Positions 8,000-62,721 of a DNA stretch of 64,000 bases are shown in pieces (position 1 is the first letter of the stretch; every line of letters begins with the position of its first letter). Position numbers and translations under genes: made by a program. The notes beneath the pieces are model-generated. The model was given only the letters and a program-made list of their open reading frames with translations. It did no database searches and was not told where the DNA came from. This stretch comes from Tetracentron sinense (Eukaryota; Streptophyta; Magnoliopsida; Trochodendrales; Trochodendraceae): the NCBI GenBank assembly GCA_015143295.1, contig CM026562.1, positions 1,302,001-1,366,000 on the forward strand, written 5' to 3'.

Positions 8000-10160
8000 T
8001 CTTGAACCAATCTCTTATAGTCATGACCAAGACAACATATCACACACACAAAAGCTCCAAAATATTATCGAGTTCTATTTGTTGGGCACATTTCAGCCAT
8101 GTGCTATATCCCGATATTCATGAACGCTCTAGAAAATCAGCCTAAATTCTCATAGGAAGCAGCCCCACTTCCACACTCATATACTGCATCTATCAAGGGT
8201 GTCCCGTAACTTTACACCCCACTGAGAATCAGCTATAGATGACATTAAGAGTATACGTCTCATCCTCCTCACGTTATAGGTAGCACCTTAACATCATAGG
8301 GATGAGCACGGAATAAACTCCTTAGTTGTGCTCTCATCAAGTTACTCAATAACTTGTTTTCCCATTAAACCTAGATCTTGGGATCTCCAATCACATAGGT
8401 TGGGTTACCATTGTCAGTTGCTTATTATTTATAGGCTTTAGACCTATCCCCTCTATGTACATATATTAGATCTCTTGCTAATCCTTTGGTCAATTGATCA
8501 ACAAAATTTTCGGTTGACCTCACAAAATCAATTGCAATCATTTTGCTATCGAGTAATTCTTTAATAGAATTATACATTCGACGAATATGTCGGGATTAAT
8601 GATTTTTTGCCCTTGCTATAATGTATAGTTTAGCAATCACAATAAATTAGGATAATATGCATAGGAATAGACATCAATTATTAGTATATCTACCAATAAT
8701 ATTCTTAACCATCCTGCTTCCTTTCCAGCTTTATCTATAGCTGTGAATTTCAATTTCATCATGAATCGGGCTATGCAAATTTATTTAGTAGATTTCTATA
8801 ACATTCCACCTCCTCCAAGAGCGAACACATATCCATCATAGACTTAGATTCATTTGAATTTTAAATCTAATTTGCATTGTTATATTTTTCTAATACAACG
8901 AGATACTGAATATAGTTAAGACCATAGTTCAAAAACTTGAAAACTTGACTCGACTCTAAAGTTATTCAGTTCGAGTAAGTTGAAAAAATCAACTTGGTCT
9001 AACTTGGAATATATATGTAATATATATGTGTGTGTACCAATTAAGCAATTACTAATTTCTTGGAATTGTATACAAGATTGAACCACAAATAACTTAAAAT
9101 AAACTTGGGTTAAAAGAACTGAAAGTAGGCTTGTTTTGCAGCCTCAAACCTAAAAATTAGGTTCAACAAAGCCCATAATAGTAGTAGGTTAGCTTTGCAT
9201 CCCCAAAAAATATGATATAAAAATAATATGATGATTGAGTTTAGGTTTTTTTTAAAAAAAATGAAAGTGATAAAAATATCATTTTGTGACTCGACCTAGT
9301 CTGGCGAGTCGAAAAAGTCAACTCGACCGAGTCATCCTAGTAACTCGCCGAATAGTTTCTTTTTCGAGTTTTGAGCAAACTCGACTCGAAACTTTGTCGA
9401 GTCGATTAACTCGACTGAGTTACTCGGTTGAGTCGAGTAACTCAGCCGAGTTACTTGGGTGACTCGCCGAGTTTTAAACTATAGTTAAGACTATAAACTA
9501 GAGTATATATCCCAGATATCTCAACACCCTAATAAAAGAATCCTAGTAATCTTGCCATGGATTACAAGTATATATACTGAGTTTATTTATAGCAAATGTT
9601 ATATCTGGTCTAGTACAATTCATGATATACATCAGACTACCTATTATCCACTAGTTAGGATACACCATCTCATGTATGTTCCCTTAACACACATATATTA
9701 TTAAAATGTGTTATAACCAGTTTGCAAATATCCTGCCTAAATTTTCTCAACACTTTCTCAATGCAATGAGAATAAGATAGCCTAATGCAGGCAGAATTTC
9801 TTAGAATTTCAATTCCAAGAGTTATGTCTCCACAAACCAAGTCTATCATTTAAAAATAAATATTTGGAGTCTCTCAACGATCTTTAGTATTTCGTTATCA
9901 GATCCGTTTATCAATTTATCATTGATATATAGGCAGATAATTAGACAAGACTCGCCATTGAGTTTAGTGTAAATGCACTTAGCTGCTTCATTAATTTGAA
10001 CCCATCATTACTCTTTCAAACTTTCATGTCATTACATTAGTGTTTGCTTCAGTTCATATGAAGATCTGAATAGTCTACAAACTGTTTTAAACCTTGAACT
10101 ACAAACCCTTCAAGTTGATCCAAATATATATTTTTTCTTCAGCTCTATCAAGGAATAGAA
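8000..10160 (-). mobile_element. degraded Copia fossil (reverse transcriptase/RNase H region)
   Basis: Translated on the minus strand, short stretches match the Copia reverse transcriptase and RNase H region, for example around the active-site region at about 9900-9960 and the RNase H-like stretch at about 8470-8600. The left flank (8000-8450) is probably untranslated sequence of the same element. It is heavily broken, with no long frame, so it is old. A hAT-like element has inserted at 8923-9483. Confidence 0.6.
8923..9483. mobile_element. hAT-like MITE, interior built from the word ACTCG
   Basis: It starts CATAGTTCAAAAACTTG and ends with the near complement GAGTTTTAAACTATA. It is flanked on both sides by the same 8 bases, GTTAAGAC (8915-8922 and 9484-9491), the target duplication length of hAT elements. 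The interior is dominated by variants of GACTCG, CGAGTC and ACTCGCCGAGT. There is no coding capacity. It sits inside a Copia fossil and so is younger than it. Confidence 0.85.
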
Positions 10161-10514
10161 ATTTTACACCCATTTCATGGATTTCAGGATTATATATAGG
10201 TTAAGGCCATATTAACACAAATGGATGCAATTATTGTTACTAGTTGATATTTACATCACTATTCTCATATTTGGTTACGAAAAACCTATACGCACTACTA
10301 TCATGGCCATAAATTGTGATATTAAAATTTATATATATATAAATTTTATAGATGATTACAATATATATTCTTAAGAGTAAAGATGGAGCTTTAGAAAATT
10401 TAAAATCCTGAAAAATGTAGTAGAAAATCATATTGAAAAATCTAAATAAAAAAATGCTGAGTATAGAGGTCAGATGGAGGTGAATGATATGATTTTGACT
10501 TATTTTCAGAATTT

Positions 10515-14777: not shown

Positions 14778-14804
14778 CCTATCAATCTATTATCATTTCA
14801 TTTC

Positions 14805-16167: not shown

Positions 16168-16203
<36 letters not shown>

Positions 16204-16324: not shown

Positions 16325-19300
16325 ATGGCATCGGCTTGCACTACCATGTCTTCCATTGGCTCTTTGGCTGCTCCTAGTGGCCGTGTGATGGACAAGAAGC
16401 TTTCAAGTTCTTCAGACAAGTTTTCTTCTTTTGCTTCCATATCTTCGAGTTCGCTCGGTGGAAGGAGACAGAATATAACTCTACAACGGAGACGTTCTCC
16501 CCAAATTATGGCAATGGCCAAGGATTTATATTTCAACAAGGATGGTTCGGCTATCAAGAAGCTGCAAGTGAGTCTATGAGTAAGACATTGTTGCTTCCTC
16601 TTGCAGTGAGGTGCAGGTGGAGTTTGCTATTTCTAACTCTTTATTCATATTCTGTCTCAGAATGGTGTGAACAAGCTCGCTGATCTAGTTGGGGTTACTC
16701 TTGGTCCTAAGGGCAGGAATGTTGTCTTGGAGAGCAAATATGGCTCCCCGAAAATTGTTAATGATGGTGTGACCGTAGCCAGAGAGGTATACTTACTAGA
16801 AAGCTTCTAATGCTAAGGTTTTATCTGTAAAATGGGAAACAAAAGATGGATATTGGTTTTTTTGTTGCACTTTTGTGTTTATCCTTCCCAATTATTAACT
16901 TTTTCATTGGCTTTTTGCCATTAGCTGTTAAACCACTCCATGGTATTTCTTGCTTATCCCATAGTGACAAAGTCGGGGTTCAGGAATAATTTGGCAAGGG
17001 TCAAGCTCGAAAAAATCCAGAAAAATATGGGTAAAATCCGAGAACAATTCAGGGAAAAAAATATAAAAAGATATCCAACAATTTAATTAGATAATATATA
17101 AAATAAGCTGTTTACTTTATCAAACTAAACGAATTATTGCAAAATTCGCGAATAATTCGCAAAATTCGGGAATAATTCACAAAATCCGCAAATAATTCAG
17201 CAAACGAATCATTTGGAGAGTAATTTGGCACACCTAAAATTTGTGAATAATTCGCAAATTTTTCACAAATTTGGAGAATTTTGTTAATATGGCTTATCCA
17301 TATTTCTGTGCAATTGAGAGCTCTGCTTTTTGGCTTAGAACCGCCTTCTTTAGTTGTTTCCTGAAGCTTATTAGGGGAATGCAACATACTTCTTATCTCT
17401 TAGATTTTCAAATGGATATGAATTATGAAATGTTAAAGTGATAGATGTTTAGGTGGAATTTGTTATTGTGGTTGCTGACTTCTATTCATTTCTTAGGTTG
17501 AGTTGGAGGACCCAGTTGAGAACATTGGTGCTAAGTTAGTGAGGCAAGCTGCTGCCAAGACCAATGACTTGGCTGGGGATGGGACAACGACGTCTGTTGT
17601 TCTTGCACAAGGTCTGATTGCTGAAGGTGTTAAGGTTTGTAAGACATTTATTTCACCTAATTTGCTTTGAGAAATTTAAGAACATAGTTGTTTATGCAAT
17701 GTAGCACTATCTAACAAGACGTAAGTTGTTCAGGTGGTAGCTGCTGGTGCTAACCCCGTTCTAATTACTCGAGGTATTGAGAAGACCACAAAAGCCCTAG
17801 TGGCTGAGCTCAAGTTAATGTCGAAAGAGGTAAGGTAGAATGGCCTTTAATGTAGATTTAACTGGCTTCAAGACTAAAGAATACTTATGATGCCACCTTG
17901 ATTTTCCCAATGACTAATGATTTTCAGATGCTTCTGAACTGAAGTCTCAAATTTGCCTTCTGGGTTCATATATGATGTTTGGAGTTTCCTGTAGAGTTTG
18001 GAATGAAGGTTTCACCATGGATGTAAAATGGGGTTGCAGGTTGAGGACAGTGAATTAGCAGATGTAGCTGCAGTCAGTGCCGGAAACAACTATGAAGTAG
18101 GAAATATGATAGCTGAAGCCATGAGTAAAGTAGGCAGGAAGGGTGTGGTGACGCTTGAAGAAGGAAAGAGTGCTGAGAACAGCCTCTACGTTGTGGAAGG
18201 AATGCAATTTGATCGTGGTTATATCTCCCCTTACTTTGTCACAGACAGCGAGAAAATGGCAGTTGAATTTGAAAACTGCAAGGTATGTGTTTGTGCCAGG
18301 AGACAGCTTAGTTTCTAAGAGGAAGTGTGGTTGTTTAGCTAAATATCTTAACCTTGGAGTTCTATATTCATGTATTTTCTTTGATGGATGAATTTGGTTT
18401 ATGTAGTTGCTTCTTGTTGACAAGAAGATAACAAATGCGAGGGATCTCATCAATGTTCTGGAAGATGCCATTAGAGGGGGATACCCAATTGTGATAGTTG
18501 CAGAAGACATTGAACAGGAAGCTCTTGCAACTCTTGTTGTGAACAAGCTTAGAGGGGCACTGAAGATTGCTGCACTCAAAGCTCCTGGATTTGGAGAGCG
18601 CAAGAGCCAGTACCTTGATGACATTGCTATTTTGACAGGAGGTTAATAACTTGATCTTCTAATTTCACTTCTTATATTGTGAGCTCTTCTCCTGCTGCCA
18701 CTGTGGAAAACGAAGGAGCCAGCTTTGTTATGGCTTTTAAATGTTTGTTCCTAGTTCTTGAGAGGATTCTGTAATTTGTGTACAGGAACTGTAATTAGAG
18801 ATGAGGTAGGCCTGACCTTAGACAAAGCTGACAAAGAAGTTTTGGGCCATGCTGCCAAGGTAGTGCTTACCAAGGATGCAACTACAATTGTTGGTGATGG
18901 AAGCACTCAGGAAGCAGTAAATAAGCGAGTTGCACAGATCAAAAATCTTATTGAGGTGCTACTATATTCCATAATTAGGAGGTTCTTGTCATTATCATCA
19001 CTGAGTTCTCTTGAAACCATAATTATATTTTTTGGTTGTGCAGGCTGCTGAGCAGGACTATGAAAAGGAAAAGCTTAATGAAAGGATAGCAAAACTGTCA
19101 GGTGGTGTTGCTGTCATTCAGGTAAATTCTCAATTACTTTACCAAAATGCTTGATGAAGCAAGTTTGAGATATTTTTCTGTATATTGATGTTTCTGATGA
19201 TCTTTGGAAGGTTGGCGCACAAACTGAGACAGAGCTCAAAGAAAAGAAACTGAGAGTAGAAGATGCTCTTAATGCAACAAAGGTATCTTTCCTGAACTCT

Positions 19301-19600: not shown

Positions 19601-19635
<35 letters not shown>

Positions 19636-31447: not shown

Positions 31448-34400
31448 TCAGGACCAATATATTGGGGAAGAAATATGTTGGTGAAGATGTTGGAAAATTG
31501 AATTCTTTATGGGTTTAAGGTTAAACCCCTTTCTATAACCTCAAATAAAGCAAATAAGAAAGATTCCTAGAGGCAATCCCAATGACATTTTACACCTTGG
31601 AATCCAGATCAAGTATTCCTAGAGGCAACCCCAATGACATTGTACACCTTGGAATCTTGATCAAGTACTACAAGGAAGGGTCACCACTCACTACCACCTC
31701 TTATCTATGTGTCATCTTTATTATGTGATCTAAGTTCAAGACCTGGTCCTTAGTGCGATTAGGTCTTTTTTTAGCAATCTGAGTGTATCTTTTCTTTTTG
31801 GAAGGGTTCTAGAGTATTTTCCGAGTGCTCATAGGCATGGTTTAAAATATCTTCGATATTTCCGATATCGCAAGGTAAAAAATATCCTGTACATGTATTT
31901 TTTTTTTCTTGCAATATATCACCGATATTTATGAAATATCGCCCAATATTTCCAATATACGTTCGATAATTTTGATTTATGTTTTATAAGTTAGGGACAT
32001 GGAATAAAATGTCGACGATATATGTCGATATCGAGGACATATGTCAATATCGCACACCCCACCCCCCGACATATATGCATGGGGTATTATAAATTTTACA
32101 CCATATCGACAATATATCGTTGATCTTGTGCAATATCATGCGATATTCTAGGGAATGTTGGTTTTTAAGCTATAAAATAAAGTCATTTAAATTTTAAAGC
32201 TTATTTACATAAAATATCATTTTAGTAAATGATTTTAAATTATACCTCCATTTGAATTCAATAAAAATCCTAAATACAAATTCTTGAAGAATAACTTTTC
32301 AGTTTAAGAACAAAATCTACTTTTTAGCTTCTTTTAGAGATTAGGTCAAAATTTTAACTTTCAAATGCTAAAGTATTTCTCAAATCTTAAATTTCATAAA
32401 TTCTACCATATCAAAACATTAATAAGAACCCAAAAGCCTGGTGAAAAAAGTTTCATATTTTAGTTTTCAAATATTTTCATCTACTGGGTCAAACAGTCAA
32501 CTAGCAGCTCAGCAGGAAAAAAAAACTTACATTCAAACTTTACAAAAAAAAAATTAAGCATATTATAAGTATCCTCCATTTAAAATAATTTCAAATTTAA
32601 ATTCCAAAATAATCATCTGGATATGTTTTTGGGTATGAGCCATATGGATATTAGTATGGATGTGTAGAGCCTTATGTGACAGTGTCAGTGACAATTGTGC
32701 ATTAGTATCCACAGTATCCACCAATGGTAGTGTTGCTACATCTTGGACCAGATGACTAACAACGTAATATAATGGTAGCATAATGTAATGAGCTGGGCAT
32801 AATATTGTACATTTGTACTTATGTGGAAAACCAATACTATTGTTAGCCTAATCAAGACAGAGATGAGTCCGAGTCTTTGCGTTACTCCATATGTCTCTAA
32901 TTGTAGTTCTTAGGGTGGGTTAGATTATTCCATCATTGATGTATTATTTATGAAACTCTATTTGTATAATTTTATTGTTATGAATGAAATATTTTATGTA
33001 AGTTATATCATTATTAATCAATCACACATTATCGACACTCGTCAACGCACATCTTTGCTCCCTTCTTATTGCATCTCTTATTTACATTATTGTTTTTTTT
33101 TTTAAAAATTATTCTCAAATATGAGACAGGGGGATCCGCTCTCCCCATTTCTCTTTGTGATTGCCTCGGAGGCTCTAAGTCGGATGTTGTCTAGAGCAGA
33201 GGGGATGTTATTCGAAGGTTTTCCGGTTGGTGCTAACAGGTTGAGGATTTCTTATCTCCAATATGCGGAAGACACTCTTATTTTTGGGCGAGCTTCGAGA
33301 AGGGACCTTCTATATCTCAGATGTATTCTTAGATGTTTTGAAGCGGTGTTAGGATTACGGGTCAATCTAGCAAAGTCTGAGCTTCTCCGGGTAGGTGAGG
33401 TACTTATTATAGACCATCTAGCCATTTGTCTAAGTTGTCAAGTGGGATCGCTTCCTTCGGTGTATCTTGGCATGCCTTTGGGTGCAAGCTATAAAGCAAA
33501 ATCAGTGTGGAATCCAGTGCTAGACCGAATTGCAAAAAGATTATCCGGGTGGAAATCGGCCTCCTTATCGAAAGGGGGGAAATTGACTCTTATTATGAGC
33601 ACCTTACGAAGTCTCCGTACTTTCTTCATGTCTACTCTCACCATTCCACGCTCTGTGGCTAATTTTATATAAAAACTCTAGCGGTCGTTTCTATGGAACG
33701 AGAGAGGGGATCAAGCCAAATATCACTTAGTAGCCTGGACTCAAATGTGCCGCCCTATGGAAGAAGGTTTGAACCTTAAGCCGCTTATCCAAGTAAATAA
33801 AGCTCTGTTAGGAAAATGAGTGTGAAGATATGGAGAGGAGTTAGATAGTTTGTGGCGAGCTGTGATAGTAGCCAAGTATGGAGAATCGTCATGTTGCATT
33901 CCTCGGGAAGTCAGAGGCATTCATGGATTGGGTTTTTAGAAGGGGATTATGGTAACTACCAACTTGATTGTGCCTTACTTTAGTTTTCGGATGGGGAGAG
34001 GGTCGGAGGTTAGGTTCTGGAAGGATGTATGGTCTGGGTCTACTCAGCTAATGGATGATTTTGGGAAGTTCTTTGTCCTAGCATCCAACAAGGATGCCCT
34101 AGTGGAGGAATCATATGAGAGGAGCGCAGAGGGGTAATTTGGTGTCCGAGGTTGCTTCGAGACTTAAATGATTGAGAAATCAGTGATATGGCTCGGCTAT
34201 TAGAGCGCATAACCATGGTCGGTTCTCAGTAAGACTTTTGCTACAATTTTTGTCCCCTACTCCGGGTGAGTCTTTTCCTCATAGGGTGTGTGGAATCCTG
34301 GGATTCCCTCCTTCTTATGGTCTGCAACTTTGAATAAATTCCTAACATGTGATCACTTGCAACATAGAGGATGGAGCATGGTTAACGATGTTTTATGTAT

Positions 34401-37400
34401 CTCCAAGTGGAAGAGACGGTGGATCACCTCCTTTTGCACCGCCCTATAATTCAGGTGGTGTGGGGCTTTTTCCTCTCCCGCATGAGGGTGGCATGGGTCT
34501 TCCCCTTATCCCTTCACGACTTTTTATCTTGTTGGTCCTTGGATAGGGGGGTGGGTGCTTTGGAGGTGATTTGGTCAATTCTCCTTGGGGCTATTTTTTG
34601 GTGGTTTTGGAAAGAAAGAAACCTCAGTGTGTTTGAGGGTGTTTCTTCCTCCGTTCCATGGATTTGCGAGCGCATCCGGTTGGGTGTTATGGAGTGGGCA
34701 TGGATCTATTGTAGAGGGGAGGAAATTCATGGTATTTTGATTTAATATGTTTCTCTCCTAGGGAGGTAGGTTTTCACCCCGGTGTTGAGTTTATATACTT
34801 GTAAACTCTATTGCCGAGTCCTCTCCTTGTACCCCTTTTTCCATTTTTAATATATTGAAGTATTGAACTGCATTATCGAAAAAAAAAAAAAAATACATAT
34901 ATTTTAACATTACCTGATTACCTGGAGTTTCATGGCAAAATTCCATGTTTTCCCTATATTTTCCCATTTTTCCATCGACGTGTGCAAAATCCTTGATAAA
35001 CAAAATATCTTGCGATATATCCCTCGATATATCTTTATCCCACCGGTGCGACATGTCATGCATTATCGACATTTAGAACCTTGCTCATAGGTGATGGCAG
35101 ACCTTTAAGCATTAAAGGCAACCTACCTCTTACTAGGCAACTCATAAAACAAATCAACTTTTTAATATTTAAATTGTACGAATTACTTTTTTGCATGATA
35201 CCTCACAAGTCATTAAGTGTTTCACGTTGGCGATCAGTTGTTACACAGTCCTTCAGTGGGATCCAGTTAGGCAGTTATGCAGGATTAAATTTTTTACCTA
35301 CAATCCCCCACTTGACACACACTTGATCTAGATTAACTCTAACTCTCATTCATAGTATGGAAAGAAAACCTAACTTGAAGATGTTTTTTATCCCATTTAA
35401 TCATTGGGTTCACTGGTAAGAGTCACCTTAAACCAATTAGTGCAGTTGGGTTGGGTTTAAGTATCCTCAAGTTCATGAGCTTCCGAGCTACTCATACGTC
35501 CACATGCTTCAGAAATCTTACGCTGTGAATTTATCATGTATTCTCTTTATAAGCTTTTAGAAACATTAATAGTCTTCAAATAAGAAACAATGTGAATATT
35601 ACTTTTATAAACAGTGTAGTTAAAATGTCGCCTAGGCAACACCTCGCCTATTGAAGACTCTCATCACCTAATCATGATCTAGGCGGGCTTGTTATAATTT
35701 CCACTTAAAAAGTAGATTTTGGTCGCCTGGGCAATCCCTAGACTATGTCTCGCTTAGGGAACCGCCCAATGGCCTCTGTGATGCCTGAACGCATTGACTT
35801 CACTGATCTAAAGAAAAAGCGTCCGTACTTTATCCATTAATGTTTTGTCATGATTTCAATTATTCCATTGAACCTTCTGAATTTCTTGAGTACCACATGT
35901 ATTATTATCGCATTAACCTCAAAGAGGTTGTATTTTAGACCATATTGTTATCCCAATTCATTTAGTTGGTTTGGTTTTAGTCTATCCTCTATAGAAAATA
36001 TACATCAAAATGAGACTTAAAATTTTATTTCCGTATTCTCTTCACATTATTTGTTTCTTCTGTGAAATTGCATTGGTTAATGAACCAACTATCATTACGG
36101 ATGCTAGCAAGTACTCCCATATGTTTGATCCTTGTACTAGTTCCTCAATGGAATTTTCGGTTTATGTGAATAGTCTTTCCACGATGCATGGAATTCCTTG
36201 CAATTGCAATAGCCGTCTTATTGTCACTAGATTATTGTACTCATATTATCATGGGCATTTAAGGTTGTCTCTTTTACAAGCTCAAATATACACTAGATTT
36301 CCATATTAGCCTTGTAAAGAGAGATGAACTCAGCTTCCATGGTTATTGTGCCTTCCATGGTTATTGTGCCGTACATCTTTCTCTTGCTGTTTTTTTTTAG
36401 GCAGATAAGGAGGAAATCCATTAATTGAGAAAAACTGTAGAAGAGAAGAAAAAAGGGGGGATGAGAAATATTTCCCCTCAAAAAGCCAAGCTATGGATTA
36501 AGGAGTTGCAAAAATTTAATTAACTCCATTTGTACGAATGTCTGAAGGGGTGACGTCTGCAAACTTAGGCAAATGCGATGACCAGCTGTGAATATACCAC
36601 CCTGCCGAGTAGCGGATATTAGGCGAGGAGCACTCCGATCCTTCAAAATTTTGCTTATTTCTTTCACACCAAATGCCCCAACAGACTGCAGATGGAAGCA
36701 TACTCCACAAGATGTTCTCCTTTCGGCTATAAACCCCTTTGGGATAACCTAGAATCAGGTCATGCACCTCCTTGGGGCATACCTAGGCCATTTTAAATAA
36801 AGAAAGGAAGAAGCCCTGCTGCCCCCATGCCTATGGACATTGGATGAGGAGGTGATGAATGTTTTCCTCAGCTTCTTTGCACATGATACATCTATTAGGA
36901 TCGAGCATACCACAATTTTTTAGAAGATCAATTCAATTGTTAGAATCTTGTCAAGTGATGCCGTCTAGAGAAAGGCTAAATCTTCTCAAACTGAGGAATT
37001 TTAACTTTATCCGAATCCTCCTTCTCTAATAGAAAGCTATAAAAATCGGAGGTCTTAAATGTACCTTTTACATTCCCCAGGTCCTAGCCAAATCTGGCAG
37101 TCATCTGTATCTAGCTTTATTTGCACATGCCACAATCTATAAAAAGAGTAAGGCATTCCACTAACTCTGCTTCCTTCAAGCTCCTCCTAAAAGTGGGGCA
37201 CCAAATAATCTCTTTGTTTATGTGCTCATAGAGATCACAAATTGGGCATCTTTCACTAGGACCATCTTATATAGCCTCAGTCACAAATCACCTAATTTTC
37301 AAATACTACGCCAGTCATCTTTCCAAAAGCAAACCCTGCACCCATTGCCCAACGCAATCTAGACTCTCTAAGACCTGATCCTATACATTCGTAATGCCTT

Positions 37401-40400
37401 TTCCAAACTCCCACCCCATTATGGGAAGTGACGGCCTTGCAATCCCAACCGTTTTTGGGCATCCCAAAATCAGTGTAGTCAAAGTGTGCAGGCGATAGGA
37501 GGTTCCCCTAGGCGAGGCGAGGCGAGGCGAGGCATGGCATGGCATAGGCAAGCAATTATTACTACTTTTGCGAAAGTAAATTACCAAGTTGTTTGTAGGG
37601 CCTTACCCCAAAATTTATTACCTAGTCTTGATTATATTAGCAAGCTTCTAACCTTTTTCTCAATGCATGTACCATTTCCTACAAAATTGTCTCCATTCGA
37701 AATTCTTAGATTTGAGCCTTAGTTTAAAACCACTTTCATAAATGTAGCGACATATATAAGATTACACCTAATCTCAAGGATCAAAAATGACGTTTATTGA
37801 GTTAAACTTGATCAAATGCTAGTCTAAGTTTATGTTGCTGGTCTCTAGAATAGGAGTAGGGTTGTCATTCCTCATTTGGACTGATCTTGTGTCATCAACC
37901 TCCTTGAAGTTAGTTAGCAACTCCTTGTTCAAGGTGATGTGTTTGATGGCTCAAGAGTCAACATGCCACCCTTCATTACCTCCACATTTAAGACATCGAG
38001 TATCATGTTGGCTTCATCTCGAATAATATGAATCTAATCAACCTTCTTTCTTTGATGACATGTCCAGGCAAAATGTCCTAGTTTTCCAGAATTTTAGCAC
38101 TTTCTACTAATCTTGTTAGGCTTGAATTTTTTTCTGAAAGTTCTTCTCTCCTTTTGGGGGAGCGCTTGTAACTTTTCTTTGGGGTTGGGGAATTCTCCTT
38201 CATAACATACCATTGAGATCTATCCTCAAGTTGTGTCATTCAGGTATTTTCTCCTATCGCATGGAACTGATAGAGCTCCTTAATGCCTCTCCTTCTAAGG
38301 CCAGGTTGAACATTTTCCCATGATGGAGGAAAGCAGCTACTTGTTGGCTTTGAGTTAAATTCTCTTCAACATATACAAGATCACATGCTTCTTTTTTCAT
38401 CCATTTTCAATGAGAAGTACTTTGTCATAAAAGTGGATTGAACGAAATTGGATTCATATTGAATCGCTTTTCCAGAATTTCCCAAAATTAGCAGTCTTTA
38501 AAAAGTAAACTAGACAAGATATTAAGGCTAGTATCTTTGTAGAGATAATCCTCTTTCTTCCACTTGTTGTAAGTGTTATGATCTTTGAAGACTGCTCATA
38601 ACTCATAAGGAACTCTTGGAGAGTCTTCTTCAAGGTTATGAACAAGCTCCATGATGGTGAGGACAAATCGTACCTTCCTTTTCCACATAGGTAAATTCAT
38701 GACTCCTAACTTGTCTAACTTCTTTACGTCTTTTACAACTTGATATCTCTGTCATTGAACCAAATAAAGATCAAAAGTAGGAACCTTGAGAAAATGATAC
38801 CTTAAAATGTTGGGAAATGGAAGAAAACGAAAAGATATCTAAAGGATTCAAAATATAAGGGAACTAAGAGAGAGAGCCTCTCCTAGTCTTCTTAGGCATG
38901 TCTGTGTGTGTTGTGACAAAAAGGGTCAGTTTACAGTGAGATCCTTCTTTCATACTTTATTGCCAATTCGGAATCTCTCTTTTCCTTATAGATTAGTTTG
39001 GAAAGCGAGGTTGCAGTCCAAGGTTTCCTTCTTCCTATGGTTGGTGACTTTGGACAAGATTCTTACCTGTGATCACCATATGAGAAGAGGGTAGAGGATG
39101 GCCAATGGTTGTTTCATATGCCTTGCTTTGAAGGAGATGGTTGTCTACCTCCTGCTTCATTGCCCTTTTGCTTCCAAGGTTTAGAGTTATTTCCTAAGTC
39201 ATTTGGGTATTAGCTGGACCTTTCCTCGCTCTTTCTATGACTTCTTATTGAGTCGGCTTTTGGTGCAATTTGCGGGTAAAGGCCCGAAGGGGGAGCATTC
39301 GCAAAGGCTGTTTTGCCCACAGCGATTGTATGGTCTATTTGGAAGGAAAGAAACTCCAGAGTGTTCGAGAGGGTGGTCTCATCCCCCTCCAGGGTATGTT
39401 ATAGGATTGTACAAATATTGTTTCAGTGGTGAGTTGTCCGAGAGGATTTCGATCTTGCGTACAAATACTCTTTTTTATAACTGTTTGGATGGCGTTTGGC
39501 TTTTATATCCATGTATTTTGTTGTTTAAATCTCGACTCACCTTATGAGCGGTCATCATAAGGTGTTTTAAAAGGCTTGTGAGGCTTATGCCTTGAGGCGA
39601 GGCTTAAGGAAAACGCCTTGAGGCTTAACCATAAGGCTTATGCCTCAAAGTGTGAAGCTCACATGAGGAACACGCCTTATGCCTTGAGACCTGCTTTATG
39701 TCTATAGCATACGCCTCATACATTAACTAAAATTAGGTTTGTAGCCACATAACTGGGACTTGAGCGTTGTTTTTTAATTTTAAATTTGTTATTTGTTTCA
39801 ATTAATAACAAATAATACTTTATTTATTTTAGATAAGACATTGAAAATAATGATGATGATGATATTAGTTTTCAACTAACACTTAATTTATTATGTTTAA
39901 TGTATTTAGGCTTTTAAAACCCTTAAAGCCTAATTCATACTGATTTTCCTATTAGACATTGCAAAAATTTGGAGCCACTGCCCTATAATGTAGTTCATGA
40001 CTTATTTGCAAATTTTTACTAAAATTCTAAATCCACCACATAAATTGATGATTGAACATCATCTTTAATATGTATATAAATAAGAAAGTAAATTTAATTT
40101 CAACATTTGCTTGCCCTTCTTATATTTTTTTTGATAGTTGAATAATTTATATATTATTTTGTATGAGTATGTGCGCGCCAACATGCACACAGAAATGTAC
40201 GCGAATATGTATATATATATATATATATATATATTTGCATGCATATCTCTCTCTATAGTCTATATATATACTATAATCTTTCATTAACTTTTAAAATATT
40301 TTTATAATTTCTCTTATATTTGATTTATTTGTTAAAATAAGAGAGAACGAGACTTTCTTGTGAGGCTTACGCCTTACATATCTTGAGGTCCTAACGCTAG

Positions 40401-41236
40401 GGCTGTCAATGGATCGGATCCGATTAGCCGGACTTTGGACCTTATATGTAATCGGTGGAATCTGATTATAATCGGATTGGATCCAGATATAGGGTGATTC
40501 GATCCGATTGAAATCCGATCTGATTATAATAACTTTTTTTTTAATCATTTTAAATATATTACATATATTTTCTATGCATAAAGTATTAATTTTAAAAAAA
40601 TTAACATTAATTTGAGTTAATTAAGGTACTATTAGATTTTAATATTATTAAAATAATTTTTTTTTAAAATTAACCTTAATCGGATCGGATTCGGATCTTT
40701 AAAATATAATCGGATTCGGATTGATTAATTCATGATCTAGCGAATCTCGAATCAAATTTGGATCTATTGGATTCTTAATCGGATCTAGGCAGATCCGGTA
40801 CGAATCCGACCCATTGACAACCCTACCTAACGCCTCGCTTCATGCCTTCCCGTTTTAAAACATTGGTTCATAATGAACTCATAAGAGAGTAAAATGTAGG
40901 TAATAAACCCTGAGTTGAAATTTGAAGTGTTTTTCACTTGTGAATTCATATGTAACCTCTATTATTTAGGACAAGTGACCTTTTTATAGGCAACTAAACT
41001 ATTTTCTAATTTAATTCAAGTGCTATGGTTGGACGCTATACAAGGAGGTAGTTGCCTTTTCTTCTAGTATGGGATTTGGTACATGGTGTGTATCTTTGGT
41101 GTTGCCTTTAAGCAATTTCTTTCACCTGCCTTCATTTTAGGTGGAAACCATGGAATGAGGATTTAACTTTAAACCATAAGGGATTCGATTTTCCAACCTC
41201 TCATCAAAGGATCTTTCCCCAACTTATTGGTCCTAA

Positions 41237-47794: not shown

Positions 47795-49352
47795 GTTGTG
47801 CTATTATTTGAGGAAATTCCTTGAGCCAGTAACCACTTCTTTTTTCCAAACAATAGTTTGGGTTCTAGATCTCACCAATTTCTTGGGGCAATGCATCTGA
47901 ATCTCTCTCTCTCTCTTCTCTCTCTCTCTGTAGAACTTTAGTATTCAACCTTCCCGAGGATCCTGTAAACTGTGTAGTATATAGGTAAAGGAAAAGCATT
48001 CAGTTCGGCTTTGAGACTTGGTTTTTCAAGTTGGGAAGGTGGAACGACCAAATGAAAAAAAAAAAGCCACAGATGCCTTGACCTTGTACATCCCATCTGA
48101 AGAGATCAAGGCAAATTTTGCATGTCATTTCATTTTTTACTCTTTGACATGGTCATCAAGAAGGATCACTTTTAGAGGCAATTTTGCGCAACACTGAATC
48201 TGCATGTTGGTAGCTTGGAGTTGTTGGTTAGGAATAAAAGATGCTGGAAAATGTAATGTGCTAGGGCTTTAACCAAAGCTCTTGGCTTGAAGGAGTGCTG
48301 CTGGAAGGATGGTTTATATTATATGGGCTTTTCATGCCAAATATATTCATTTGATGGGGAATGTGTACTCTACTTGTAATGGGAATGCTATCATAATTAT
48401 GCCTTCTTTATATTATATGGTCCTCTTTTCTAAGCTCTGTGCATCCTTGTGATACTCTTTTTTTTTTTTGCATTGTTTTGTTCTTGTACATGGGTATGAC
48501 AACTCTCTACAACATGAAAAAAGTCCATCAGGAATTCTTTGGAGGCCATTGTTGCAGGTTCCGATCCCAGAGCTCTGGATCTGTGGACTTTGATGTTCGA
48601 AGTACATAAATGTTGTGTAGTGCTGAATCTGCAGTTTTGGAGGCCATGAGGTCCTCTAATATGGTAGCTGTATGTTGTCAGTGCTGCCGATCACTATACA
48701 GTATATGCATTACTGAAGAGTCAACAACGTATCCATCCTTAACAAATTGTTCAATCAATGCTACATTGGACTGCGATTGCTAGGGTTTGGGAGCTAAACT
48801 GAACTGATAAATAATGGGGTTAGACTTGGGTGCACAAGATGTTCTCGGACCTTAGTAGGATCTGTATAGGGAAACCATAGGGTGTACAGGCTTAATTGTG
48901 GATTCTTTTTCTTTGCTTTCTTTCATGTTTTTGAGATGGTCGGATATCCGAGTAGCCGAGACATTCGATGGATCGGGCATGGAACCATTTATTTCATGTG
49001 GGGGACATCCCTAAACCTTCTGATATATCAAAGAATAAGCATAACGGTTTGGATTAGATATTGACTTATCGGACGGCTATAGGTTTCCCATTCAAGAAAT
49101 GGGACCCATTAATTGAACCAGATTAATGAGGTAGTGGGTCATGGTTATGGCTCATCAAGAAGATCAGGTCCATCTTTTGATTTTCCAAGACAGTGTTAAG
49201 AATACTGATTTATTACATTGCACTCATGGTGATCAAACTGCTCCTAAACTTTCAAATTGCTACTTCTGGGCTGCTGGTCCCTTCCCTCTATCCCAATTTT
49301 CTAATTCCTCAATCCCTTTTTTTTTTTTTCTTTTACAAGTCCCATAAAGTGA
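47795..49352 (+). other. Pumilio 3' untranslated region and intergenic stretch
   Basis: Sequence after the stop codon at 47792-47794. A CT tract lies at about 47901-47936. No other gene is seen before MET1. The poly(A) site is not fixed. Confidence 0.5.
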
Positions 49353-55400: not shown

Positions 55401-58400
55401 AAATGATGTCTTCTTCTTTGCTTGATTTGCCCTTGATAGTTTCATTGGCGAATTCCTTCTTGAATGCCATTTTCTTGATATTCTTCTTATGCTTCAAATA
55501 TTTCTTGAATTTTCTAGCCTTGTGAATCATCTCCTCATCCTCTTCACTTTTATCTACTTGTGAGGATTTTTAAGGCATGTCCGTTCTTAGACATTGGTTC
55601 ATATTCTTTATCTTTCATGATAGCTTCATGAGTCATAAGTGATCCAATAAGCTCATCCATTGGAAGATTTGTGAGGTCCTTTGCTTCTTGGATTACCGTC
55701 ACTTTAGGTGCCCATTCCTTTGGTAGTGAGCGAAGTATCTTCCTCACATTTTCGGCATTTAAGTACACATTTATAAGAGATTTTAAACTATTACTAATGT
55801 TAGTGAATCTAGTAAACATATCGGAAATAGATTCATCTTTTTCCATTTAAAAAAAATTCATATTTATAGACTAACATGCTAATTTTTTCTTCTTTAATTT
55901 GGTTGGTTCCCTCATTGATAATTTGGAGTTTATCCAAAATTTCTTTTGCGAAGTCACAAGCCGAGACTCTATTAAATTTTGGTAGACTCAATGCGTAATA
56001 TAAATTTCTAATTGCCTTGGCATTGAGTTGCACAAGCCTTGTATCGGCTTCCGTCCATTCATCCTCATTTTTTGGTACTTGAATATCATCTATAGTTTTG
56101 GTGGGGATGTGGGGACCATTGACAATGATTTGCCAACATTTATAGTCTAAAATTTGAATGAATGAAAGACATCATTCTAACTTTCCAATATTTATAATTT
56201 TCTCCATCAAACAAGGGAGGTCTAAGGGTTGATTGTCCTTCTCTAAGGGTAATTGCATATATATTATCCATATTTGTCAAAAATCTTTTCTCCTAAACGG
56301 TTAAGTCTAAAAACAGAGACCTAAGCTCTGATACCACTTGTTGCCCAAGGATTTGACACTAGAGGGGCGTTTGAATAGGGTCTACGGCAAATTCAAATTT
56401 TTTCCTAATCCTTTAAGCGGAATATCAATTATACTAATTAAAAAGGAATAGAAATTATGTAATTTCACAAACAATGCAAAACAGTAAAGTACAAAGGAGG
56501 GAAAGAGAAAGCAAATACAAGATGTTCTCGAGGTTCGGCAATCCCGCCTACGTCCCTGCCTCAAGCTATACCCACTTGAGGATTCACCACGATTTTACTC
56601 AATCGCACGATCTTCTTCCGGGTGAAGATCAAACCTTTACAACCTTCTTACGGGTGAAGATCAGACTTTCCTTGTAAGAAAACACCATCTCTTGACTTCA
56701 GTCCTCTTTACGGGTAGAGACCAAACCTTACAATGAATTTTTCTCACTCTTAAGGGAAAAAGTCTCACGGACCTCTTGATTTCAACACTTGGATGAGAAG
56801 TGTTTTACAATCAAAATGTGCTCCTAAAATGAGCTGAATAATCTCTCGAAAGCTCACTGAAAATCTCTCAAAGATTGGAGTTGAATAGCTCAATAAAACT
56901 AATTTAGGGATTCTAGGTTTAACTCAATACATTTAGAAATCTAAGCTTTGAAGTGATTGTTAGAATGATTGGAATTATTGGAGTTCTATTGGTTCATAAA
57001 TTATTTCATTTTATAGTCCAAAAAGTTTTATGGCCGTTGGAGTAGCATTTAATGCAAAATAGCCGTTTAAAAAATAGTCATTACTGTGTATTTAATGTTC
57101 ATCCTGAAGCATCTAGCCAACTAGATGGTGATCTGGTCGACTAAATGAACACAGTGGCCAGAATAAAATCCTGGCCTTCATCTAGTCGACTGGATGGTTG
57201 ATCTAGTCAACTGGATGGATGATTTTCAGCAAAAAATCATTTTTTTCTTGACCTTAATGATGGGAATAAATTCATAAGTCTTCTACCTTATCTTTATCAA
57301 GATAATTACCATATTTTTAGGTCCTTAGAATGATTTTTAATTTAGTCTTAAGGGACCTATGGTCAATCTAGGCATTGAGTTTTCAAACAACCAAACTTTG
57401 AAGACTTTTTACAAAAGTCCTAAATACTCTCAAACTAAAATATAAAACATTAAACCTTCTAAGAGAGTCTTCATTCTTCTTCATACTTGATCTTGAATTG
57501 ACTTCTTGATTTCATTTTTATGATCATCATTCTTCTTTGATAGTCTTCATCTTCATGACTTGACTTGATATGATCTTTAACATCTTCAATATGATCCAAC
57601 TTAATCCAATGACTAGCTTTGACTTGGTAATGAATCTTCTTCATGGATGGAGTCATTTTCATGTTTTTGCCTTGAATAGTTTGTTAATGCTCTTGGTAGA
57701 CTGATTTGTGCGTAGCGAAATTGCAATGCCCGATTAGGATTGGGCTGCGTCAACTTTATTGGACCGGTGTCACACCCTATCAAATAGGGTGTATTAACAC
57801 TATCATCTTAATCAAATCATTTGATGAAGTGTTCTAGTTTTAGTGTGTACACTTTATACCTAAGCCAAAGAGTGATGGTGTACCAATCTAGGTACACCTG
57901 CTTTACACCAAATCAAATGGTGGAATAAGTGCAACACATTAACACTCAAAACTTTTTCTCTCACACATGCCCGCAGATGGTTCTCAAATCCCGCGGAAAA
58001 CCTTTGCATTTCCATCCCACGGACACCCCACTTGTGAGGCCTCTTGAACATTTTCTAATAATGGGGGTGTATCATGCATGATACACCCACCTACATGGTA
58101 GCCTCACCCATAAAGCTCATCATTATCCAATGATGATGATGATAAAGCAAGCTCGTCATTATCCAATAATAATGAGGATAAAGCTCATCATTATCCACCA
58201 CTCTCCTCTCAAGTTTTGTGGGTCTCAAAGATATTCAAATTTCCTATTCTAATCAGTGTAGTCAAGGCGCGACCCTAGGCGTTTTTGGACCTCAATCGCC
58301 TAGGCGCCCCTTTAGACGGGCAAAACCCATTAAAAAAAAAAAAAAAAATTTAAAAATCCAATGAATAGAAAAAAATTAAAAAAAAACATGCAATGAAGAT

Positions 58401-61400
58401 GTAACAAGATTCTAAAACATTTTTTTTAACTAAAAATATTGTTTTCGACGCAATCTGGGCCTATTAGGAGGGGTGTATCATGCTTGATACACCCCACCTA
58501 CATCCATGTTTTACTCATGTCATTATCCTTCCACATTTTAAATCCCCTAAATCTCTCACATCACCCAATCACAACCAACCACACCTACACTCCAAATATC
58601 TCACAATTCTCTCAATCCTATCCAAATGAAGGGAGTTTAAAAGGGTTCAAATAAAAAAGAGGGGTGGCAGACCTAGAGAGAAGAACAAGGCCGAAAACAA
58701 AAAAGAGGGGAGAGGACCTCTCGGCTGGCCCAAACCAGCAGGCTACTGAGAGACCTTGGTCTCTCAATGCTCTCTCTAGCTACGGTGAAAAACAAAGGGG
58801 CAGGGAGGCTCTCGGCTAGCTCATGGCAGGCGGTGAGAGGGACCTTCAACATAGGTCCCTCTTTATATTCTTCTTCATTCTCGGTACAACAACTAAGGAG
58901 AAGATGGTAGCCTCTGCCCCATGCAAAGATGATTCAGGAATAACATGAGTAAAACATGGATGTAGGTGGGGTGTATCAAGCATGATACACCCCTCCTAAC
59001 TAAAGAATGACACGATGGTAGATGGGTGTGGGTGGTGGAGAAAATAGTGGATAGAGAATGAATGGTAATGGTGGTGTGAGGTGGGGCCCATTAGAATAGG
59101 AAATTTGAATATCTTTGAGACCCACAAAATGTGAGAGGAGAGTGGTAGATAATGATGAGCTGTATCCTCATCGTTATTGGATAATGATGAGTTTGCTTTA
59201 TCATTATCATCATTAGATAATGATGAGCTTTATGGGTGAGGGTACCATGTAGGTGGGGTGTATCCATTATTAGAAAATGCTCAAAAGGCCTCACAAGTGG
59301 GGTGTCCGCGGGATGGAATTGCAAAGGTTGTCCGTGGGATGTGAGAACCATCCGCGGACATGTGTGAGAGAGAAAGTTTGAGTGGTGGTGTGTTGCACCT
59401 ATTACACCCTTTGATTTGGTGTAAAGCGTGTGTACCTAGATTGGTACACTACCACTCTTTGGCTTAGGTATAAAGTGTACACACCAAAACTAGAACACTT
59501 CATCAAATGATTTGATTAAGATGATAGTGTTAATACACCCTATTTGATAGGGTGTGACACGGGTCTAATAAAGTTGATGCACCCCAACCTTAATCGGGCG
59601 TTGCAATTTCGCTGCCCACAAATCAGTCTACCAAGAGCATTAACAAACTATTCAAGGCAAAAACATGAAAATGACTCCATCCATGAAGAAGATTCATTAC
59701 CAAGTCAAAGCTAGTCATTGGATCAAGTTGGATCATATTGAAGATGTTAAAGATCATATCAAGTCAAGTCATGAAAATTAAGACTATCAAAGAAGAATGA
59801 TGATCATAAAAATGAAATCAAGAAGTCAATTTAAGATCAAGTATGAAGAAGAATGAAGACTCTCTTAGAAGGTTTAATGTCTTATATTTTAGTTTGAGAG
59901 TATTTAAGACTTTTGTAAAAAGTCTTCAAAGTTTGGTTGTTTGAAAGCTCAATGTCTAGATTGACCATAGGTCCCTTAAGACCAAATTAAAAATCATTCT
60001 AAGGACCTAAAAATATGGTAATTATCTTGATAAGGTTGAAGACCTATGAATTTATTACCCTAACTTTTGCCTAAGCCGTCATTTCGGATGTTCAACTTAG
60101 CGGGTATTTTGGTGCCCTAATTTTTTCCTAGACCATCTTTTTGAGATTTTGATCTAGCAGGCTTTGAAAATCTTACATTGGTCGGGGGAGATACTCCGTT
60201 ATCCGTCTATTGTAATCAGCAGATATGCTTCTGATGGTGAGAAGTCCTGCCTTAGAGTTGTGGTTTCTTCTTGGTGCATCAGATAGCAGTTTTCTTCGTT
60301 TCACCAATATTGAGGGACAATAACAATGATTTTGTATCCCAGGGAGATGGTGTTCTTTTAAAAGAACTGGCTGAACCCAAGTTAATTTTCTCAGGCTGCC
60401 TACGTACCTATAATAGGATCAAGTCAAACGTAGTTCAGAATGGGCATTTAGATTCGCATTTTGAGAGTGAATAGGTAGTTTCCGTTTATACATAGGAAGG
60501 TTTAGACTTCAGCCTTGTATTCAGGGCTTTTTAAAGCTTTGATTCGCATTTTGAAAGTGAATAGGTAGTTTCAGTTCATACCTAGGAGGGCTTTGGATTT
60601 CGGTCTTGTATTCTGGAGACTTTTGAAGCGCCATGAACAGTTTTAGCTCGTATTCAGGAGCCTGTCAAATCGCTCTAATTTTTGTCTGAACTGACTCTTG
60701 GAGTGTTAGTCTAGCGAGCTATTTGTTGCCCTAATTTTTTCCTAGACCCTCTTCTTGAAGTTTTGGTCTAGCGGGCTTTTTATTTTGACTCAAATTTTTT
60801 TATTTAAGCTGTACTTTCGGATTTTCAACTTAGCGAGTCATTGTCGCTCTAATTTTTGCCTAAGCCACCCCTTAGGGTTTTCGACTTAGCGAGCATGATT
60901 TTGACTCTAATTTTTGCTTAAGCCGTCCCTTGGGGTTTTCAACTTAGCGAGTCTTTTTGTGCTCTAATTTTGTCTAGACCGTCTTTTAAAGTTTTGGTCT
61001 AGTAAGCTTTTTGATTCCTTGGAGTAATATAGTTTCAGGAATCTTGCATTAACGTCTACATGGGATCTGGGCAACCCCATTGAATAAATACAAATACTTT
61101 ATTCAATATTTGTTCTTCTTTAATTCTTTTTCTTAATCAGAGGTTCTTCCCCAAATCGGGAAGGTAATTAACAATCTGAGTTTACTCAGATTTGAAGGAT
61201 AGTCCTTCACCCAAAATAATAAACTTCATACAACAATTGAGGTAATTTCATACGCATGACGAAATAAAACGTTACATGATTTTCACATAAACTCAATTGA
61301 GACATTAGTAACACAAAGATCCTTATATTATTGTGTTATCATCAAAATCATTAAGGGAACGTATGGTGGAAACCTATAAGCTAACAATTTCTTATATGAG

Positions 61401-62721
61401 ATGAACTGAAGGGTGATGAAATGACTTAGTTGGTACTAAGAATGTTCTTTTCATTCTATATGTGATGGTCTGGTTTTTGGAAGTTTAATTTAGTCTTTTA
61501 GCTTTAGAGAAATGCTGTGGTACAAATGTTTCAAGTTTAGTAAATTTGTCTTTGAATGTTAAGACCCTGATTTATTGCAATATTTTACTGATTTTTTCTT
61601 TTCATTCTTTAGTATTTTGACACTTTTCTGACGGGCTTCTATAATTTCTCTTCTTTCATTTGATATTCTTTCAAGTCGTTACCTGATAAATCCCAAATGA
61701 TTTTTGTAGTCTTCAACTCATAGTTACCAAACACCCGTATTATACCCGTTTAGTACTCGTATAATACTTTTAAGGGGGGTCGCCGTTTAAAACTCCGTAC
61801 TTTTTTCGTGTTACGTATTATACCCGTATCGCCGTTTAATACACGAATTACGTATTAAATGCGTACAATACGCGTATTTTTGCCGTTCTTTTACCGTGTT
61901 AAACGCTTATTCCACATTAAACGATTGTTATTAGTTTATATCATGATATTTATTTATTTATTATTTTTTAATTTTTCCATACTTTTACCGTGTTTTTGCC
62001 GTATAATACCCGTACTTCCCGAACGGATCATTGCCGTATTGTACTCGTACTCGTATTTGGTAACTATGCTTCAACTAGACACTTCTGCATGCTTCTATTC
62101 ATAGATGTCCGGTTGAGACTACAGTTATATGGTCTTGGGCTTCTAATCTTGCTTTTCACTGTTTATCAATAAAAAGGAATGGGAAATATGAAGAAGCATT
62201 GGAGAAGTTTGAATCGGTACTGGGATCAAAACCAGAACCAAATGAAGCTTCAGTAGCAAGTTACAATGTAGCATGCTGTTATTCCAAGCTTAATCAGGTA
62301 CTATTCCAGTTTCAATAGATAAAACTGTCATTATCACATAATGGAAGTTGGCAAGAATCATACAATTTTTTCTAGCTATTTACTTCTGTTGCATTTGCTT
62401 TCTTTGTCGTCATGCTCCTTTATTGCAGATACAAGCTGGACTCTCTGCACTTGAAGATGCCCTAGAAGCAGGATATGAAAATTTTAAGGTAATCAACAGA
62501 ATTTCAAAATATGTATAGCATGTTTTATTCCGAACAGTGATGCCTACAGATATCTGAATCTGTTGCTATTGTTACAGAGAATCCGGACAGATTCAGATTT
62601 AGCCAATCTAAGAAAATCTGAAGAATTTGAGCCTCTGCTCAAGAGGTTTGACGAATCCTTCATCAATGAAAATGCTATCAATGCCATCAAATCTATATTT
62701 GGAATATTCAACAAGAAATAG
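49448..62721 (+). CDS. MET1: MET1/ZKT, chloroplast PDZ and TPR protein
   Basis: Thylakoid-associated protein that in Arabidopsis helps assembly of photosystem II supercomplexes. Exons: 49448-49917, 50302-50408, 51333-51427, 51590-51666, 62177-62297, 62429-62488 and 62578-62721. They join in frame to 357 aa (Arabidopsis about 335). Residues 1 to about 88 are a Ser/Pro-rich transit peptide. An acidic stretch (GDEGEEEYEVEL) follows, then a PDZ fold with YGLKFAKGRDGGTYIDAI and GDKVLATSAVFG. Next come a charged helical part (KLDKPGELTEREIIRAERN) and TPR helices (YKNGKYEEALEKFESVL, ASYNVACCYSKLNQ, AGLSALEDALEAGY). It ends FGIFNKK. Intron 4 is 10.5 kb because of a nested LTR fossil. Intron 2 holds a hAT-like MITE. 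The reading frame is intact. The start is the first ATG in frame with the transit peptide. Confidence 0.93.
50710..51200. mobile_element. hAT-like element in MET1 intron 2
   Basis: It starts TAGGAGCGGAGCCGGGGG and ends GGCTCTATCCCTG, with inverted ends matching at about 10 of 13 positions. The flanks AATCCCCC and ATCCCCCC look like an 8-bp duplication blurred by a C run. The interior is AT-rich with C/G runs near both ends. Plants carry many elements starting GGGGCGGAGCC. Confidence 0.6.
52348..53777 (-). repeat. left (3') LTR of the Copia-type fossil
   Basis: 1430 bp, TGTTGCCCAAGG at the left edge and GGCTAACA at the right edge. It is uninterrupted and so gives the reference for the split right LTR. 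Confidence 0.88.
54804..56033 (-). mobile_element. gag region of the Copia-type fossil
   Basis: Minus-strand stretches resemble the UBN2-type gag of Copia elements (for example the region at 55550-55846), followed by a zinc-knuckle-like region (about 55370-55420) and a Lys/Glu-rich coiled region (54.9-55.3 kb). The frame is broken. Pol is absent. Confidence 0.75.
56325..56336 (-). other. primer-binding site
   Basis: GCTCTGATACCA on the plus strand, that is TGGTATCAGAGC on the minus strand. This is the usual Met-initiator tRNA complement, two bases inside the right LTR. Confidence 0.85.
56339..57706 (-). repeat. right (5') LTR, first part
   Basis: Matches the left LTR from TGTTGCCCAAGG up to GGTAGACTGATT, where the nested insertion begins. 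The remaining 110 bases lie at 61277-61386. Confidence 0.88.
57255..60060. repeat. 2.8-kb inverted repeat
   Basis: The left arm runs from about 57255 to 58517, including 450 bases of the host LTR and the start of the nested insert. It is matched, inverted, by about 58945-60060. The unpaired centre is about 58520-58940. The right arm includes the junction between host LTR and insert (CGCTGCCCACAAATCAGTC at about 59611-59630). Only the left arm carries the CTAGGCG-word insert (58254-58456). Similarity of the arms is high by eye. Confidence 0.85.
58254..58456. mobile_element. CTAGGCG-word hAT-like fragment
   Basis: It starts CAGTGTAGTCAAGGCGCG. It is absent from the matching place in the other arm (about 59085-59092), so its left edge is sharp and it came after the inverted duplication, or was lost from the other arm. 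The right end is not a clear terminal repeat. Confidence 0.55.
60061..61025. repeat. tandem-repeat block, LTR/untranslated type
   Basis: 60690-61020 and 60061-60170 consist of units of about 60-70 bases such as CTAATTTTTGCCTAAGCCGT followed by TTTTCAACTTAGCGAG. 60451-60630 holds two units of about 90 bases starting ATTCGCATTTTGARAGTG. A phrase near 60393, GGCTGCCTACGTACC, is common in plant Tat-lineage Gypsy LTR regions, but that is only suggestive. Confidence 0.6.
61719..62068. mobile_element. hAT-like MITE, interior built from the word CCCGTATTA
   Basis: It starts CATAGTTACCAAACACCCG and ends with the complement ACGAGTATTTGGTAACTATG, allowing small differences. It is flanked by the same 8 bases, CTTCAACT (61711-61718 and 62069-62076). 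The interior is a chain of CCCGTATTATACCCGT, ACTCGTA and GCCGTTTAA words. It lies in MET1 intron 4 and ends 108 bases before exon 5. Confidence 0.9.

Follow-up and report, generated by a model that had tools for sequence, protein, structure and literature searches.

Why do several transposon-like elements, unrelated in sequence and lying in one stretch of plant DNA, each look as though written in a single reiterated short word? The stretch, called the window below, is the 64,000-nucleotide interval C12:1302001-1366000 of the Tetracentron sinense genome assembly (1.16 Gb, 1479 contigs), and its elements, E1 to E7, were compared with their genome copies and with hAT transposase genes. A first-pass annotation of the window had described a class of at least eight such elements and had proposed that in each of them a transposase-binding motif had spread over the whole element. 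We consider it likely that the elements are non-autonomous, of the type of miniature inverted-repeat transposable elements (MITEs), or decayed members of several plant hAT lineages with lineage-specific subterminal words, each probably bound by the transposase of its own lineage. hAT MITEs with lineage-specific subterminal repeats are in themselves a known kind.

Exact 8-bp direct repeats around inverted ends were recovered at E1, E2, E3, E5 and E6 by a coordinate-free scan of the window, and these are the five duplications that had been claimed. Tips of hAT elements follow a YANNG consensus; the stricter form YARNG does not fit CATAG. A joint rule was set: YANNG at both tips, a perfect 8-bp duplication, and inverted matching at 9 or more of 14 positions. 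Four pairs in the window obey it, all among the five elements, against a mean of 0.175 and a maximum of 2 in 40 dinucleotide shuffles, and this comparison rules out chance as the source of the 8-bp duplications as a set. Exact duplications of 6, 7, 9 or 10 bp showed no excess over shuffles. E2 falls outside the rule because its right end is CATAT, so the YANNG-like ends attributed to the class hold for four window elements and fail at that one tip. Without the YANNG rule, the class with 10 of 14 inverted matches, to which E1 and E3 belong, is at chance level (6 seen, 5.15 expected); E1 is backed by its genome copies, and E3 is known here from the window copy alone. Nine further pairs from the same scan, inverted matches at 10 or more of 14 positions, were left uncounted: those at 57528-59799, 57853-59474, 24679-24845 and 21613-21837 lie within longer inverted or palindromic repeats, and the others belong to the class that shuffles produce (5.15 expected at 10 matches, 0.3 at 11).

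The remaining members of the proposed class are less complete, E4 having no clean duplication and the three CTAGGCG pieces (E7a to E7c) being decayed. All three pieces start with CAGTGTAGTYAA, a 12-mer that occurs at chance level when two mismatches are allowed (5 seen, 4.72 expected); an inverted partner (35794-35805) exists for the first alone, with no 8-bp duplication there. As for target choice, hAT elements prefer nTnnnnAn. The 56 targets pooled here (from five long elements, three families and a further two elements of the window) lean the same way: the second base is T in 28 and the seventh is A in 29, the window background being 32% T and 30% A.

Table 1 Elements of the window, with their tips, words and target-site duplications.
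Element	Position	Strand	Type	Tips (left / right)	Words	Duplication
E1	8923..9483		MITE-type	CATAGTTCAAAAAC / TATAGTTTAAAACT	ACTCG near both ends	GTTAAGAC
E2	16960..17291 (332 bp)		MITE-type	CATAGTGACAAAGT / CATATTAACAAAAT	AATTC/ATTCG, mostly right half	GCTTATCC
E3	31836..35083 (3248 bp)				CGATAT at both ends only	CTCATAGG
E4	39560..40865		element containing nested E5	AGGTGTTTTAAAA / CAATGTTTTAAAAC	AGGC/GGCTTA	no clean duplication
E5	40398..40825		MITE inserted in E4	TAGGGCTGTCAATG / TAGGGTTGTCAATG	ATCCGA arrays at both ends	CCTAACGC
E6	61719..62068 (350 bp)		MITE	CATAGTTACCAAAC / CATAGTTACCAAAT	CGTAT/CCGTA	CTTCAACT
E7a	35612..35805		piece with both tips	CAGTGTAGTTAA / CAGTGAAGTCAA	CTAGGCG	none
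E7b	37471..37540	+	left-end piece; right limit by eye		CTAGGCG family
E7c	58254..58310	+	left-end piece; right limit by eye		CTAGGCG family

Genome copies were sought for E1, E2, E5 and E6, with the best 40 of 2304-2712 first-look candidates scored for each of these four queries (2279-2712 over all searches), so that copy numbers are lower bounds biased to good copies; the script also chose the end pair with the fewest mismatches, which tilts the counts towards finding duplications. All 8 of the E6 copies fetched (the window copy included) share the same start and end bases, with exact duplications in 7 and two mismatches in the eighth, and the other 39 scored copies are 86-90% identical. Among 30 fetched E5 copies the duplication is exact in 11 and has one mismatch in 12, two in 5, three in 1 and six in 1; with tighter end windows one copy had no end pair and another had seven mismatches. 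Thirty of the 40 scored E1 copies were fetched; the duplication is exact in 13 of them, one mismatch is seen in 6, two in 4 and three to five in 5, and the last 2 lack an end pair. The four E2 copies read (40 scored of 2712) all carry the tip CATAGTGACAAAGT, with 2, 0, 1 and 2 mismatches in the duplication. Genome-wide, then, most of the copies fetched for these four elements keep their ends fixed and show an 8-bp duplication that is complete or nearly so, in agreement with the first-pass annotation, and the four are MITEs in being short, free of a coding frame and present as many dispersed, fixed-end copies. The same length of duplication recurs at the coding loci L069, L071-L074 and L091, described below.

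Word content was compared with 200 dinucleotide shuffles of each element, the best k-mer being sought in both, and with same-length window stretches outside the elements. ACTCG occurs 17 times in E1 (0.97 expected), a value reached by 0/200 shuffles and 0/295 stretches; ATATCG occurs 14 times in the ends of E3 (1.13 expected; 0/200 and 0/288, the ends having been picked after the words were seen), and over the whole of E3 its count is reached by 0/200 shuffles and 2/39 stretches. GAGGC in E4 (8 against 0.49 expected; 0/200 and 2/182) and ATCCGA in E5 (12 against 1.23 expected; 0/200 and 2/392) are similarly enriched. The excess over shuffled sequence is thus strong for E1, E3, E4 and E5, and it is weak for E2 (ATTCG 10/200 shuffles and 97/512 stretches; AATAATTC 0/200 and 16/512) and E6 (AGTAC 2/200 and 63/483; ACGAGTAC 0/200 and 28/483). 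The exact long words first given as the reiterated units are too rare for that role, with one to three occurrences per strand in the whole window (CCCGTATTA once; GGATCCGAT once, its complement twice; AGGCTTATGCC twice, its complement once; AATTCGC three times, its complement once), and shorter cores are reiterated instead. Because E5 is nested in E4 with a duplication of its own, the presence of two words at one place is explained.

The words are concentrated at the ends of the longer elements. The profiles by tenths of length use only copies that have an end pair and at most two mismatches in the duplication (7/30 dropped for E1, 2/30 for E5). The density of ACTCG per 100 bp in the 23 remaining E1 copies runs 5.3, 4.6, 3.8, 0.8, 0.25, 0.3, 0.7, 3.1, 5.6 and 5.9, and that of ATCCGA in 28 E5 copies 4.0, 4.8, 5.6, 2.7, 0, 0, 3.1, 5.3, 4.9 and 3.8, so that the word occupies roughly the terminal 30-40% on either side and is nearly absent from the middle. 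None of the 14 CGATAT sites of E3 falls outside 19-306 and 3178-3190 of 3248, each being at most 312 bp from the left end or 72 bp from the right end, and a reverse-transcriptase piece is found by Pfam at 33106-33672 within E3. The claim that a single word makes up every interior is therefore wrong for the longer elements; E5 and its short copies look word-built because the word-free middle has been deleted.

A coding element with the tips and word of E5 carries this point. From a genome search for the hAT dimerisation domain (PF05699; 150 of 1709 candidates scored), six loci that have long open frames were retrieved in full, and five of them (L069, L071-L074) have inverted ends and an exact 8-bp duplication. 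L069 is 4119 bp long, with ends TAGGGCTGTCAAT and TAGGGCTGTCAAC, the duplication GGTGAGGG, and an open frame of 670 codons with BED, hAT RNase-H and dimerisation (PF05699) domains. Its word, ATCCGA, is confined to the terminal ~150-165 bp on either side, with nine copies at 16-141 and twelve at 3956-4097, apart from strays at 406, 1668 and 3132. E5 aligns to the first ~205 bp and last ~260 bp of L069 at 75-79% identity, as do its copies shown (in a list that ran to L019) at about 74-80%, and on this alignment E5 is an internal-deletion relative of the coding element. The other four loci end in TAGGSNTGTCAAA, yet their arrays consist of GGCCC/AGGGCC and their transposases are 43-46% identical to that of L069; two lineages with the tip TAGGGNTGTCAA thus differ in word, ATCCGA in one and AGGGCC in the other. 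Sixteen further hAT genes, for which right ends only were read, include nine with TTGACANCCCTA tips: seven with 9-14 copies of GGGCC, one (L083) with 15 of ATCCGA, and one (L089) poor in both.

The sixth whole locus, L070, encodes a transposase 58% identical to that of L069, and no such ends were found there. Together with the genes behind L075, L078-L082 and L087 it is of hAT type without recognisable tips in the stretch read; these may represent further hAT families, or hAT transposases that have become host genes.

A second transposase branch was found with DUF659 (PF04937; 150 of 1783 genome candidates scored). At nine of 13 right flanks sampled beside DUF659-hAT genes an array and a terminal CANNG tip are present, and six different words occur there: AGGCTTACGCC with the tip CAATGTTTTAAAACG at L091 and L097, ACTCG with CAGTGTTTTAAAAC at L092, L098 and L099, CGCCTAGGC with CAGTGTAGTCAAGG at L094, CGATACGG with CATGGTTCAAAATATC at L095/L104, AATCG with CAAGGTTGTTAAATTG at L096, and CGCCTCAGGC with CATAGTTGTCAAGG at L101. 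When these nine right ends and four of the TAGGG type were compared with 300 shuffles, the best 5-mer beat 300/300 in all 13 and the best 6-mer did so in 11, with 1/300 for L069 and 15/300 for L096. The left end of L091 was located through its duplication, CCCCGGAC followed by CAGTGTTTTAAAA at C13:39873812-39873832 (100 of 105 genome matches listed). The element spans 39873820-39878288 (4469 bp) with an exact duplication and a DUF659/hAT gene that includes part of the dimerisation domain (PF05699, 3.4e-9), as L093 also does; its left end carries AGGCG and ACGC words rather than AGGCTTACGCC. The ends of E4 align to those of L091, at 79% over 38 bp on the left and 89% over 37 bp on the right. 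At C4:19544443, among the matches listed, GCATTAAT followed by CAGTGTTTTAAAA lies 15.0 kb before the right end of L097, which has the same eight bases, and this span is probably one element with a nested insertion.

BED zinc fingers are present at L069, L070 and L072 (SSSGTSHLINHLPRC in L069, SSKNGISHITRHLKSTC in L072). A BED search of the genome gave 136 matches from 150 candidates scored of 916, and a listed match lies 492-618 bp before DUF659 at L092, L093, L098, L099 and L100; the finger was read and confirmed in L107 and L108, two of the five DUF659 loci with BED nearby. Within the ACTCG transposons the fingers read GGINRLKHHIARIP (L092) and GGIHRLKQHIARIP (L099).

Comparison of 6-mer profiles between window elements and right ends, with 100 shuffles per window element, paired E1 with L092/L098/L099 (z 8-10), E4 with L091/L097 (z 16 and 12) and less with L101 (z 6), E5 with L069/L083 (z 10), and all three CTAGGCG pieces with L094 (z 9-18), E7b pairing also with L091/L097/L101 (z 4-6). 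By shared words and tips and by this pairing, different words go with different hAT transposase lineages, as the first-pass annotation had suspected. It had called for autonomous partners with the same ends and a hAT transposase; coding relatives exist for E5 (L069) and E4 (L091). Among the hAT loci read, no coding copy has the exact tips of E1, E2, E3 or E6; E3 resembles L095/L104 in tip only (CATGGTTTAAAATATC against CATGGTTCAAAATATC).

These results suggest the following mechanism. Each lineage has short inverted tips, makes 8-bp duplications and carries a dense array of its own word beside each tip. In short copies the coding middle is gone and the arrays are brought close together, giving the one-word look; the alignment shows this for E5, and the rest probably arose in the same way. 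The words most likely serve as sites that the transposase of the same lineage holds with its N-terminal BED zinc finger, and such recognition may let each enzyme find its family despite similar tips between families. Two transposase types would be involved, one with BED, hAT RNase-H and dimerisation domains and TAGGGNTGTCAA tips (E5), the other with DUF659, the dimerisation domain, BED where detected, and CANNG tips. Of the elements that would belong to the second type, E4 shares its ends and word, the CTAGGCG pieces share tip and word, E1 shares the word but no tip, E3 has a similar tip and nothing more, and E2 and E6 are placed there by analogy only.

Several observations weigh against this account. 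No tip with an array was seen in the stretch read at 7 of the 16 further hAT flanks or at 4 of the 13 DUF659 flanks (L093, L100, L102, L103). BED was found beside DUF659 in at least 5 of 13 loci among the matches listed, and the candidate finger of the AGGCG transposon L091 (GGISRLKNHLAGTH) scores 16.0 bits, below the Pfam cut-off of 20.6. The exact pattern of duplication plus tip gave 0 genome matches for the left end of L094, and in the search for the left ends of L092 and L098 none of the 100 matches listed (of 122) lay near either locus. E1 and the ACTCG transposons have the word in common and different tips, and no clean duplication was found at E4 (TCATCATA precedes the tip at 39560 and GTTCATAA follows 40865). 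Binding of the words by the transposases is itself argued by analogy with known hAT elements. Finally, E2, E3 and E6 found no pairing among the right ends (best z 2, 1 and 1), and no partner of E2 or E6 was found among the 35 hAT loci read whole or in part (6 whole, 16 right flanks and 13 DUF659 right flanks).

That the arrays are passive products of local duplication or slippage near the ends, and not protein-binding sites, appears unlikely to us. Imperfect tandem copies do occur, with 31-bp and 20-bp periods in E1 and E2; however, L069 and L071-L074 each carry an array at either end, the words are present on both strands, and the related transposons L092, L098 and L099 keep one word. It is quite unlikely, too, that E2 and E6, perhaps with E3, belong to another cut-and-paste superfamily that makes 8-bp duplications. 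The lack of a transposase with their exact tips at the loci read would fit such an origin, as would the 12-base look-alikes of the E6 tip at L095 (one mismatch) and L077 (two), both without a word array, whereas the DUF659-hAT at L101 ends in CATAGTTGTCAAGG, close to CATAGTTACCAAAC of E6, and the L095/L104 tip is close to that of E3. Multiplication of a binding motif until it covered the whole element is very improbable: although the E6 word occurs in every tenth of eight copies and E2 is short, the arrays in these two nearly meet, so that a covered element and two covered ends look the same there, and the near-zero density in the middle of E1 and E5 copies, the terminal words of E3 and (three strays apart) L069, and the alignment of E5 to L069 refute it for E1, E3 and E5.

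The window otherwise holds plant-like DNA, from which ten frames were compared with Pfam. Integrase and other retroelement pieces lie at 2668-3885. PUF repeats (Pumilio-type exons) at 28587-30638 and 47326-47811, on the same strand and 17 kb apart, point to a Pumilio-type protein with a CCCH zinc finger, and the pair is perhaps one gene whose large transposon-filled intron holds E3, E4 and E5. A large inverted repeat at 57427-59900 has arms of 524, 116 and 168 bp (91-95% complementary) and, inside it, a further 61-bp pair (58464-58524/58939-58999); E7c sits just within its left arm. Many 8- and 9-bp matches ~4.0 kb apart in 53114-57497 (53114/57124, 53183/57194, 53388/57411) suggest a direct duplication of roughly 4 kb. 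ACACGTGT/CACGTGTCCC motif repeats at 21613-21837 and 44106-44306, and at the genome loci L102 and L103, are possibly another repeat family. Rfam at gathering scores gave no match, and ARAGORN in its bacterial setting found no transfer RNA.

Subterminal words bound by a transposase are documented for several hAT systems. Maize Ac/Ds makes 8-bp duplications and has 11-bp tips and many short non-autonomous forms, and the Ac transposase binds several AAACGG hexamers in the terminal 200 bp (PMC3260210). Our elements resemble Ac/Ds in their 8-bp duplications, short tips, repeated subterminal word and many short non-autonomous forms; unlike Ac/Ds, they have other tips and words, several lineages each with its own word share one genome, and the short forms consist mostly of word arrays. 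The transposases of Tag1 (Arabidopsis) and Herves (mosquito) bind the short subterminal repeats AAACCC/TGACCC and CGATTCAT (PMC3143072); the words differ from ours, and binding was shown there, whereas here we infer it. In Hermes, BED fingers grip short subterminal AAG(T/C) repeats and drive assembly of the active complex (PMC10368747); Hermes is an insect enzyme of solved structure, whereas the present system is known from sequence alone. hAT-derived CGG-binding proteins have BED/Hermes DNA-binding domains with diverse motifs, and the four hAT-encoded proteins that gave a motif had motifs matching subterminal regions of their own elements (PMC8097297); the proteins described there are from animals and fungi and mostly belong to the host, whereas ours are plant transposon lineages. 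A search of the open-access literature, mostly by listing and with repeat databases not covered, found no paper on word arrays of plant DUF659-hATs; by title, the literature joining DUF659, hAT and terminal inverted repeats was fungal only, and the matches listed for six 12-13-base tip strings look unrelated.

A bolder proposal, which we put forward tentatively and which may well prove wrong, is that the hATs of this genome radiated by changing a matched pair, the BED finger and the dense subterminal word, while the tip stayed nearly constant. The array would then be an address separating co-resident families, and a MITE would amount to hardly more than a pair of such labels joined back to back.

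In summary, one genome holds several sets of transposase and word, two of which have nearly the same tip, different words and transposases 43-46% identical. Such sets offer a direct test of the way in which a hAT transposase distinguishes its own elements from other ones, and they could yield a recognition code for BED fingers. The word-built look of such plant MITEs is also given a simple reason, since it is what remains after deletion of the middle.

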